DNA of 64,000 bases, from NCBI RefSeq assembly GCF_002214505.1, contig NZ_CP015103.1, positions 186,001 through 250,000 of the forward strand, written 5' to 3'. The notes beneath the pieces were generated by a model that worked only from the letters and a program-made list of their open reading frames with translations, had not been told where the DNA came from and searched no databases. Each line of letters starts with the position of its first letter. The stretch's first letter is position 1. Made by a program: the position numbers and the translations under genes. The stretch comes from Thermococcus siculi. Its GTDB lineage: Archaea > Methanobacteriota_B > Thermococci > Thermococcales > Thermococcaceae. This document shows positions 26,848-30,094 of the stretch, one piece after another.

Positions 26848-28308
26848 ATGGAGATCGTCAAAATCCTCTACAGGGAGCTTCACTACAGGCGCCTGAAGAA
26901 CAACCCCCAGATAGCGGCGGATCCCAAAAAGTTTGAGGAGCAGCTGAGGAAAACCGGCGACATAAAACGGGGGATCGCCTTCCAGTCGGTGGCTTTTCTG
27001 TTCTTCGGTTTTATGATGGCGGGGGCAATTCTAAGCGCTGAGAGCGATACGAGGGCGGTGGTTCTACTCGCGACCTACGCGCTCCTTCCCTTCGTCATGG
27101 CCCTCTACACCACGACGGTAAACGCCTCCTACGCGACTTCCATGGGAATATTCGAGCCACTCAAGCCCCTCCCGATAAGGACCGGCGCCAAGTACCTCAG
27201 CCTTCTCCTCGCGATAGACAACGTTCCGGCTGTGATAGCCCTCCTGCCCGCTTCGCTGGCGATGACATACAGGGCGCCCCTGCCCGGTTTGGTGAGCTTC
27301 CTCTGGGTTCTCGTGGGGGCTTTCATAGGGCACGTCCTCGGCCTCGTTATCTTCACCTTTTTCGGTTCCACCAGCGTCGGCGGGAGGCTCTCGAAGCTCA
27401 GGACAATGGCGAGGATTATCGGGGTTCTCCTTTTCATAAGCATGTTCTACGCCCTCAACTACGTGCAGAGATACGTGAACGAGCACTACGAGGAGATCCT
27501 ACCCTTCTTCTCCAGGTACTCGCTGGCATATCCCTTCTCCATCGCCTCGATACTCGAACCCCTGAAATCATTCCTCCTGATACTTGGCTATCTGGCCGTC
27601 TTCGTGCCCCTATACATCTTTGTCCTCAGGGGACTCTGGGGGAGGATGGAGGAAGGGACGAGGGTTTCCCACGTTAGGAGAGTAGACTTTACGGCCAGAA
27701 CCCACCACCCCGTTGTGGCCATTGCATTGAAGGATCTCAGGATAGTCCTCAGAAAGAGCAGCCTCCTAGTCGGCCTCATCTTTCCCCTCTTCATAATACT
27801 TCCGAGCGCTATCAACATCCTGGTGTCCGGCTCCGTTAGGGAATGGGCGGTCGTCTCGGTGCTCCTCATGATCTCCTGGATGGCCTCTGTGGGGATAGAC
27901 ACCGTGCTCAAGATAGATGGACGTGAGTTCGAGTTTCTGAGGAGCCTGCCGATAACCCTCGGCCAGTTCCTCAGGGCAAAGCTCCTCGTGATGAACGTGG
28001 TCCCCGTGACTGCAGGTGCCGTCTTGGTCCTGCTCACCGCTTACTCGAACGCGTGGCTTATAAAGCTCCTACCTGCGGCGTTAATCCTCCCCTTCCTCAC
28101 GTCTTCGATAGCGCTGGCCTTCTTCTACGCCGGCGAAAAGGAACTCTCCGTTCCCGAGACCAACTTTGGTCACGTCCTTGTTCTGATAATCATCAACGGC
28201 ATCGCCCTGGGTGCCGTCGCTTTCATCTGGTACTTCCTCGGCTACCCCTACGCGCTGGCGCTGACCGGGGCCGGTGTTGCCGTTATCCTCAGGATTCTCA
28301 GCAGGTGA
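26848..28308 (+). CDS. ABC exporter permease
   Basis: A 486-residue membrane protein with about twelve hydrophobic segments, starting with a cytoplasmic helical region (residues 1-45, RRLKNNPQIAADPKKFEEQL). The layout resembles fused ABC-2-type permeases with two six-helix halves. ATG 26848 follows GGTGGGGG. It must pair with the ATPase just upstream. Its last 11 bases overlap the convergent MTH938-like gene. The transported substrate cannot be deduced. Confidence 0.8.
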   Translation: MEIVKILYRELHYRRLKNNPQIAADPKKFEEQLRKTGDIKRGIAFQSVAFLFFGFMMAGAILSAESDTRAVVLLATYALLPFVMALYTTTVNASYATSMGIFEPLKPLPIRTGAKYLSLLLAIDNVPAVIALLPASLAMTYRAPLPGLVSFLWVLVGAFIGHVLGLVIFTFFGSTSVGGRLSKLRTMARIIGVLLFISMFYALNYVQRYVNEHYEEILPFFSRYSLAYPFSIASILEPLKSFLLILGYLAVFVPLYIFVLRGLWGRMEEGTRVSHVRRVDFTARTHHPVVAIALKDLRIVLRKSSLLVGLIFPLFIILPSAINILVSGSVREWAVVSVLLMISWMASVGIDTVLKIDGREFEFLRSLPITLGQFLRAKLLVMNVVPVTAGAVLVLLTAYSNAWLIKLLPAALILPFLTSSIALAFFYAGEKELSVPETNFGHVLVLIIINGIALGAVAFIWYFLGYPYALALTGAGVAVILRILSR

Positions 28309-28654
28309 CGTGGAATATCGCCAGAATCCTCTTCTTTCCCCAAAGCTCGTTGAAGGTCCTGGCGGCCTCTCCCGTGGGGAGTTCGATGACTTCTTTCTCC
28401 CTTACAAGCTCCCTGCTCTCCGGCAGGAGCGAGAGATAACCGTAGAAGCCGGTGCCAACGATTAAGACGTCGAACTCCTCCTGGAGATACTCCCTCAGCT
28501 CCTCGGGATCGAGTTTGTGGCTCGTTCCATGCTTGTCCTTGCTGAGCCACTTCTTTCTCTTCTCAATCCTCCCGCTGGGGTAGATGACGACGTCGTGATC
28601 ATAGGTTTTTCCGTCCACCACAATCCTGCCGAAGGCCGGATATTCGAGCTTCAT
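28298..28654 (-). CDS. MTH938-like (DUF498) domain protein
   Basis: A 118-residue protein of the MTH938/NDUFAF3-like fold (DUF498). The typical core FDVLIVGTGFYGYLSLLPES and the C-terminal GKKRILAIFHVTC are present; the first half carries the conserved GRIVVDGKTYDHDVVIYP. Archaeal function is unknown; the eukaryotic relative helps assemble respiratory complex I. It directly follows the Nudix hydrolase gene (4-base gap) in one leftward unit and overlaps the end of the convergent permease gene. Confidence 0.85.
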   Translation of the reverse strand: MKLEYPAFGRIVVDGKTYDHDVVIYPSGRIEKRKKWLSKDKHGTSHKLDPEELREYLQEEFDVLIVGTGFYGYLSLLPESRELVREKEVIELPTGEAARTFNELWGKKRILAIFHVTC

Positions 28655-28658
28655 AACA

Positions 28659-29168
28659 TCACCTCAGGCTCAGGGCGTCCCCCAGGATTCTTCGGTGGTC
28701 GAAGGCCAGCGGCAGCTCAAGGGCCTCGTCTATGGGGACTACGTGGACTTCCTTCGCGTCGTCCCCTGCCTTCAGATCTCCGAAGCCAACTGCGAGAAAG
28801 GCCGTCGTTACGGTGTGCCCGCGGGGATCCCTGTTCGGATCCGAATAAACTCCAACGAGTCTCAGCAGTCTCACGTCGAGACCGGTCTCCTCCTTTGCCT
28901 CCCTCACAGCGGCCTCTTCGACGGTCTCACCGTACTCGACGAAGCCTCCGGGGAGGGCGTAGTGGTCCTTGAAAGGCTCGTGCTTCCGCTTTATTAGTAC
29001 GACGCCACCGTTGTAGAGGATAACGACGTCCGCCGTCAGGCCGATGCACCTGTGCACCTCCGCCTTGATCTCCGGGTGTCTCTCCTTAAGGAAATTCCTC
29101 AACTCCTCCCGAATGGGGGATACATCGTACCCCCTCGGAGTCTTGAGGAGCAGAACGTACCGGTCCAT
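28659..29168 (-). CDS. Nudix hydrolase
   Basis: A 169-residue Nudix protein. The Nudix box GGFVEYGETVEEAAVREAKE and the following ETGL match GX5EX7REUXEEXGU completely, so the metal-binding site should be functional. ADP-ribose or a related nucleotide sugar is the usual substrate of this archaeal subgroup, but the N-terminal 40 residues are not informative. The start is preceded by GGTGGTGAT, which lies immediately after the D box of a C/D sRNA in its leader. It is followed by the MTH938-like gene. Confidence 0.88.
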   Translation of the reverse strand: MDRYVLLLKTPRGYDVSPIREELRNFLKERHPEIKAEVHRCIGLTADVVILYNGGVVLIKRKHEPFKDHYALPGGFVEYGETVEEAAVREAKEETGLDVRLLRLVGVYSDPNRDPRGHTVTTAFLAVGFGDLKAGDDAKEVHVVPIDEALELPLAFDHRRILGDALSLR

Positions 29169-29172
29169 ATCA

Positions 29173-29230
29173 CCACCTCAGCTCCCGCTTATCATCACGC
29201 GTCAGCATGCTGACGTCTCATCATCGGTGG
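29173..29230 (-). ncRNA. C/D box guide sRNA
   Basis: On the minus strand, a complete archaeal C/D RNA layout is readable: terminal stem CCACC (29230-29226) with GGTGG (29177-29173); C box ATGATGA (29224-29218); 12-base guide GACGTCAGCATG; D' box CTGA (29205-29202); 3-base spacer; C' box GTGATGA (29198-29192); 10-base guide TAAGCGGGAG; D box CTGA (29181-29178). Such RNAs direct 2'-O-methylation by L7Ae, Nop5 and fibrillarin. By the D+5 rule both guides would place the methyl on a C in targets CAUGCUGACGUC and CUCCCGCUUA; the target RNAs are not identified. It lies in the 5' leader of the Nudix gene; a GGAATATAAGG promoter is near 29243-29253. Confidence 0.82.
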
Positions 29231-29266
29231 AGGAAGTTGGAGTTTTCCCCTTATATTCCTTGGGAA

Positions 29267-30094
29267 TTACAGGGGTCTTACCCCGACCTTTAACGCCAGT
29301 TCATCGACGTCCTCCATCGAGAAATGGAAGTCCCTGTGTTTCAGAAAGAGCGCTGTATAGGCCCCGGCACGTTTGAGGGCCTGAATGAAGGGGCACTGGG
29401 TGTAGAAGTAGGAGAACGTCGCCAGGAAGACGTCCCCGGCTCCCGTGGATTCATCAACGGGAACCCTTGCCGGCCTGAAGAGGTACGCCCTGCCCCTGAG
29501 GTACGCCCTGCCCTCCTCGCTTCCGTTCGAGATGAGGAGAACTTCAACGCTCTCGGGCCTCAGCCCGCTAACAAAACCAATCTCAACGACGTCCGCGTGG
29601 AGAACCTTCAATCCCTCAAAGGTGGAGCCTCTGATGTCCTTCAACCTCAGCTTTCCAACCTCTGGGTCCCTTATGAATCCCTGTACGTCAGCGGCCACGA
29701 AGGGCGCCTTTTCCTTTGCCTCCTCAACGGTTCGGGGAGGTACCTCCCCCGCCACGGGATTGAGGAGTATGATATCGTACCGTTCATCGGGGAGTCCCTC
29801 GATTTTTTCGGCTGTGGATAGAAGGCTCAGCTCGCGGGTGTTGGAGTCGAGATAGTGCAGTCTGTAGGAGGTGCTCCTCTCGGAGGGTATAATTTTGAGC
29901 CTGATCCCCATCCTCCTGAGTTCCTCCAGCCACTCCTCCGGGAAATCCTCTCCAACGCTCGTCAGAACCTCAACATCGCAGAAGTTTGAAAGGGCTACCG
30001 CAGAATAGTACGCCCCACCGCCGATTCTGGATTCGATTTGCGAACCCCTTATGATTATGTCCCTGACGAGGTGGCCGACGACGAGGCATCTCAT
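29267..30094 (-). CDS. PfkB family kinase, probably myo-inositol 3-kinase
   Basis: A 275-residue ribokinase-fold enzyme. The N-terminus VVGHLVRDII and GGGAYYSAVALS form the substrate site, and DESTGAGDVFLATF holds the catalytic aspartate and anion hole. The protein is shorter than typical sugar kinases, and the sequence resembles the Thermococcus myo-inositol 3-kinase described from T. kodakarensis (from memory; no search was possible). This fits the inositol-phosphate genes at 14.5-17 kb. A GGTTTTTATG box on the minus strand near 30135-30145 is the probable promoter. Confidence 0.8.
   Translation of the reverse strand: MRCLVVGHLVRDIIIRGSQIESRIGGGAYYSAVALSNFCDVEVLTSVGEDFPEEWLEELRRMGIRLKIIPSERSTSYRLHYLDSNTRELSLLSTAEKIEGLPDERYDIILLNPVAGEVPPRTVEEAKEKAPFVAADVQGFIRDPEVGKLRLKDIRGSTFEGLKVLHADVVEIGFVSGLRPESVEVLLISNGSEEGRAYLRGRAYLFRPARVPVDESTGAGDVFLATFSYFYTQCPFIQALKRAGAYTALFLKHRDFHFSMEDVDELALKVGVRPL

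Follow-up and report, generated by a model that had tools for sequence, protein, structure and literature searches.

A C/D box sRNA within a Nudix hydrolase gene leader of Thermococcus siculi and its predicted 23S rRNA target

A complete archaeal C/D box sRNA lies on the minus strand of the Thermococcus siculi genome at positions 29173-29230 of the window, the 64,000-nucleotide stretch of DNA analysed here. The same element probably serves as the 5′ leader of the mRNA for a Nudix hydrolase. With a probability of about 0.92, it is an archaeal C/D box guide RNA, the ortholog of Thermococcus kodakarensis sR61 (also named Tko-sR67), and carries a D′ guide that targets C861 of 23S rRNA. Such an arrangement makes a clean and conserved case in which one molecule is both guide RNA and mRNA leader of a protein-coding gene. 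Prior work already covers the class of sRNA, its type of location in a leader and the T. kodakarensis ortholog. What is added here is the 23S target with its covariation, the finding that this lineage has lost the D-guide target and the overlap with both neighbouring genes seen in relatives; no claim is made that these are absent from the literature.

Structure of the sRNA

Read 5′ to 3′ on the minus strand, the sRNA opens with the CCACC arm of a closing stem (29226-29230; supported by the sequence and by alignment A1), followed by the C box ATGATGA (29218-29224), which is also seen in relatives, the 12-nt D′ guide GACGTCAGCATG (29206-29217) and the D′ box CTGA (29202-29205). A 3-nt spacer, CGC (29199-29201), separates the D′ box from the C′ box GTGATGA (29192-29198), after which come the 10-nt D guide TAAGCGGGAG (29182-29191), the D box CTGA (29178-29181) and the GGTGG arm of the stem (29173-29177); the C′ box, the D box and this second arm are likewise supported by alignment. 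The sequence-only reading had described the same assembly of four boxes, 3-base D′-C′ spacer, 12- and 10-base guides and CCACC/GGTGG stem on the minus strand, and every part was recovered in its place. Its larger claim, that the leader of a Nudix gene contains a C/D box sRNA, is now backed by conservation in the family, a covarying rRNA target and a match to a sequenced T. kodakarensis sRNA.

The sequence hallmarks of archaeal C/D box sRNAs are present in the element. RUGAUGA (C) and CUGA (D) boxes stand near the two ends, a short spacer parts the internal D′ box from the C′ box, and the closing stem, which is reduced to three pairs in some relatives, is found in the minimum-energy fold. A guide that is complementary to rRNA, with the fifth base from the box opposite the methylation target, is provided by the D′ guide and not by the D guide alone. 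By analogy with the class, the C/D and C′/D′ motifs would be bound by L7Ae, Nop5 and fibrillarin. Chance assembly of the boxes is ruled out: a strict four-box search gives a single match in the window and no match in 200 first-order Markov windows, and the three-box pattern occurs at six places genome-wide against none in the reversed control.

The best Rfam match is snoPyro_CD (RF00095), at 31.5 bits (E 3.9e-5, searching 201 bases) against a gathering score of 45, which leaves the sRNA outside that family by this measure. No Rfam family scores above gathering in the window or in the searches made with 16 of the related loci. Box order, spacing and size are shared with snoPyro_CD and the sR families, whereas the guides differ in the alignments shown. 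A 16-base palindrome, CGTCAGCATGCTGACG (29199-29214), runs through the D′ guide, D′ box and spacer; its hairpin could hide the guide, and most relatives have no such palindrome.

Target of the D′ guide

The D′ guide is complementary to 23S 858-867 over 10 Watson-Crick pairs, in which C861 faces the fifth base from the D′ box. Methylation of the 2′-O of C861 directed by this guide is predicted from the pairing and from the covariation described here. Of random 10-mers drawn from the window, about 0.85% occur exactly in 16S, 23S and 30 tRNA genes.

Covariation with 23S 858 is seen at the second guide base from the D′ box in all 47 genomes that could be compared: guide T stands against rRNA A in 20 of them and guide C against rRNA G in 27. 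These are the genomes in which both guide and 23S are readable, out of 65 with a guide (the other 18 have no readable 23S), and they include G027, which has lost its C box. A tree of the Nudix and PfkB proteins requires at least four changes in the guide and three in the rRNA, giving at least three switches. Independent pairs number two on starred branches and three on all branches, which is too few for a sign test, and every scored pair is concordant. Joint changes of guide and rRNA point, with unusual directness for sequence evidence, to a methylation site around E. coli 740-749 of 23S rRNA, C861 aligning with about E. coli 743. From the E. coli numbering, we take the C861 site to lie at helix 35. 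Methylation hotspots of archaea are described in domain II, at helices 35 and 35a (PMC4644070).

Loss of the D-guide target

In most relatives, the D guide has a GGGACTT core and pairs with 23S 822-830, predicting G825 (about E. coli 707 by alignment) as its target. At least six Watson-Crick pairs across the target base are kept in 34 of the 45 loci scored, 13 of the 45 having been scored against the 23S site of the window, which was assumed for those genomes. A further 19 loci, scored against the same site, all keep at least six pairs. The 11 loci that fall below this number are those of the window, G049, G015, G005, G052, G046, G047, G003, the decayed loci of G004 and G027, and G043, where the D guide is shifted by one base. 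On these comparisons, 23S G825 is the putative ancestral target of the D guide, and the match has been lost in the lineage of the window.

A replacement target for the D guide of the window was sought in 16S, 23S and 44 tRNA genes; none was convincing, and no match exceeded seven Watson-Crick pairs in a row. The candidates set aside are 23S 126 (seven Watson-Crick pairs), 23S 2943, which would address C2947 (six Watson-Crick and two G.U pairs), and, on the minus strand of one tRNA stretch, a match of seven pairs. Matching of the guides to rRNA and tRNA, which had been proposed from the sequence, thus succeeded for the D′ guide at 23S C861, but not for the D guide in this species. The D guide of the window resembles those of G049, G015, G005 and G052 (core CGGG), and by virtue of this resemblance it may have another target, such as an mRNA. 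Orphan guides are described as common, with a figure of 28% given for a Pyrobaculum set (PMC7994747).

Conservation across the family

Model R1, built from 18 orthologs, was used to search 94 family genomes, and matches above 60 bits were counted as strong. Strong matches were obtained in 63 of the 94 genomes: 51 of 61 in Thermococcus, the genus of the window, 6 of 13 in genus g4, 6 of 7 in g5 and 0 of 13 across g2, g3 and g6. None was found in the nine genomes of g3, a genus code that we take to stand for Pyrococcus. The expectation that a covariance search would find the element at orthologous loci was borne out, the sRNA standing directly upstream of the Nudix gene in 62 of the 94 genomes. 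The strong match in G038 is located away from the Nudix gene, and G043 has two copies, one at the Nudix gene and one elsewhere. Both displaced copies (L230 in G043 and L233 in G038) sit just past the apparent end of another reading frame.

Within the genus, decayed copies are present at the Nudix gene in G004, G027 and G051, the first two of which have lost the C box and retained the Shine-Dalgarno sequence, and no copy was found at the Nudix gene in G022. These three decayed copies and the absence in G022 argue that the sRNA is dispensable. Other members of the genus without a strong match are G023, G033, G034, G036, G044 and G054. Most genomes have weaker R1 matches of about 35-45 bits, which have the appearance of other C/D sRNAs; in G022, the one match inspected is similar to the consensus of Rfam sR34.

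Absence of the sRNA shows a weak association with U at 23S 865, inside the target. This position is U instead of C in six of the nine readable genomes without a strong R1 match (G065, G066, G068, G072, G075 and G078; loci L252, L260 and L262-L265), which come from two groups, and is not U in the remaining three (G062, G022 and G027). A covaried guide was also sought in genomes that lack the sRNA and whose 23S reads TGATGTG: the pattern occurs in 3 of 24 genomes, in none of them within a C/D context.

The T. kodakarensis ortholog

The ortholog in T. kodakarensis occupies 2070055-2070116 on the minus strand, from CACCGATGATGA to CTGAGGTGGTTT. The same stretch is listed as sR61, alias Tko-sR67, an RNA of 62 nt (Liu et al., 2022, PMC9014305). 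Table 1 of that paper credits sR61 with 100,212 aligned small-RNA reads; circular reads number 92 in the wild type and 0 in an RNA ligase knockout, and the transcription start, taken from Jager et al. (2014), is listed at 2070114 (PMC9014305). In the T. kodakarensis genome used here, 23S lies at 2024590-2027618, inside the published 23S circle of 2024584-2027631, and a second R1 match at 1226839-1226900 coincides with the published sR41 (PMC9014305).

The two RNAs are alike in genomic place, boxes, Shine-Dalgarno overlap and D′ guide, except for the covarying base of the latter. They differ in the segment that separates the D′ box from the D guide, and the D guide of sR61 still pairs with 23S 822-830, whereas that of the window does not. 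Stable accumulation of an RNA of about 60 nt is published for the ortholog and, by analogy, would be expected in T. siculi. A transcriptome study of T. kodakarensis reported 11 potential snoRNAs in 5′ leaders, presumably released by processing (Jager et al., 2014, PMC4247193).

The gene junction

The Nudix gene (28659-29168, minus strand; 169 aa; Pfam PF00293, E 1.9e-25) begins with an ATG at 29168-29166, leaving four bases between the sRNA 3′ end and the start codon. Upstream lies pfkB, a gene for a PfkB-family kinase of 275 aa (29267-30094, minus strand; Pfam PF00294, E 4e-8), which by synteny is the usual upstream neighbour in relatives as well. A small gene of the DUF498/DUF598 family (28298-28654, minus strand; Pfam PF04430, E 1.7e-16) follows directly downstream of the Nudix gene. 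The sequence contains a TATA-like box, TATAAG (29250-29255, minus strand), 31 nt upstream of the C box, and 41 of 65 loci have a TATAA motif at a distance of 15-45 nt upstream of their C box. In T. kodakarensis, transcription is reported to start about 23 bp downstream of the TATA box (PMC4247193).

The Shine-Dalgarno sequence of the Nudix gene, GAGGTG (29174-29179, minus strand), is complementary to the 16S 3′ end CACCTCCT and takes in the final two D-box bases plus the 3′ arm of the closing stem. Among the 65 loci scanned, the D box lies 9-10 nt from the Nudix start codon in 59, and no D box was found in that of G051. In five g5 genomes, the start codon stands 22-24 nt past the D box, and a separate second Shine-Dalgarno sequence follows the sRNA. 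The closing-stem 3′ arm had been read from the sequence as being also the ribosome binding site of the Nudix gene. The overlap is real and extends into the D box, but the five relatives with separate sites show that the sharing is not obligatory.

On the other side of the sRNA, the overlap with pfkB varies among relatives. In 13 genomes (two g1, six g4 and five g5; loci L005, L006, L225, L227, L237, L238, L239 and L241-L246), the pfkB frame crosses the C box and the D′ guide and has the D′-box TGA as its stop codon; in these genomes, the PfkB C-terminus reads DEETSAR or a near variant and the sRNA spans both neighbouring gene ends. With the pfkB stop in the D′ box and the Nudix Shine-Dalgarno over the D box, one short RNA can fill a whole gene junction. 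The guide sequence is identical where it is non-coding, and it therefore appears that guide constraint, rather than constraint on the PfkB protein, maintains the D′ guide.

Relation between the sRNA and Nudix translation

Transcription from the TATA box would begin at the sRNA 5′ end or within a few bases of it, as published for T. kodakarensis, and the Nudix leader would then be the sRNA itself. Transcripts bound by C/D proteins would be cut back close to the start codon to yield the sRNA, giving up the Shine-Dalgarno sequence, and the D′ guide would direct 2′-O-methylation of C861 through L7Ae, Nop5 and fibrillarin bound at the C/D and C′/D′ motifs. Unbound transcripts would be translated as Nudix mRNA. 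Because one molecule cannot keep the Shine-Dalgarno sequence as an mRNA and lose it as the 3′ end of an sRNA, maturation and translation may compete for each transcript, a proposal that we regard as an even prospect. Presumably, no transcript can give both the sRNA and an mRNA that initiates normally. The earlier view that the two RNAs are processed from one transcript or are mutually exclusive fits both the start at the sRNA 5′ end in T. kodakarensis and the shared Shine-Dalgarno sequence. Competition of this kind is testable in T. kodakarensis, a tractable relative.

It is also conceivable, and in our judgement unlikely, that excision of the sRNA removes the Shine-Dalgarno sequence and leaves a leaderless Nudix mRNA, such that maturation acts as a switch for the host gene. 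In T. kodakarensis, the listed end of sR61 is 2070055 and the Nudix start codon begins at 2070052; the remaining mRNA would start about 2 nt before the AUG. Were this to hold, the same transcript would be translated by two initiation routes depending on free C/D protein, and Nudix output would be tied to ribosome-modification capacity.

Set against competition is the reading that the sRNA is real but without regulatory consequence for the Nudix gene. This reading is an alternative to the competition step alone and a credible one, a little short of an even prospect. The gene junction would supply transcription, and the box sequences resemble stop codons and Shine-Dalgarno sites; according to a review, archaeal C/D genes commonly overlap ORF ends (PMC7994747). 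The displaced copies in G043 and G038 and the retention of the Shine-Dalgarno sequence after loss of the C box in G004 and G027 are in keeping with such a passenger. A fixed regulatory role is opposed by the separate Shine-Dalgarno sequence in five genomes of one genus and by the three genomes that keep the gene with a decayed RNA. The distance of 9-10 nt between D box and start codon, fixed in 59 of 65 loci, is less easily accommodated. Moreover, 5′ overlap with a C/D gene, seen for 7% of the archaeal C/D genes studied, is reported in the same review to lower reporter expression, from which some effect on the gene would be expected (PMC7994747).

A leader switch that makes no guide RNA, in which an L7Ae-bound kink-turn hides the Shine-Dalgarno sequence, is very improbable. 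L7Ae is reported to repress its own mRNA in this manner (PMC5539422, PMC6298567), the Shine-Dalgarno sequence of the Nudix gene lies within the closing stem, and the T. kodakarensis transcriptome paper voices the same doubt about some predicted snoRNAs (PMC4247193). A switch, however, has no need of a guide, yet the D′ guide covaries with 23S in all 47 genomes scored, and the ortholog in T. kodakarensis is found as a stable RNA of 62 nt, partly in circular form (PMC9014305). In the l7ae mRNA, as in the window, a kink-turn lies beside or over the Shine-Dalgarno sequence in the 5′ leader; there it serves regulation, whereas the kink-turn of the window belongs to a guide RNA with an rRNA target. 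The sequence of the window allows L7Ae-regulated behaviour of the leader, with the Shine-Dalgarno sequence occluded, and such action may exist in addition to the guide function.

A DNA operator at the palindrome, with the boxes coincidental, is effectively ruled out by poor conservation and rRNA-linked guide changes: the palindrome is perfect in the window and gives a 6-bp hairpin in the predicted RNA fold, but its outer pairs are kept in few near relatives only, most having CTGAA or similar after the D′ guide, and its centre is broken where the guide has C, which is exactly in the genomes with G in the 23S.
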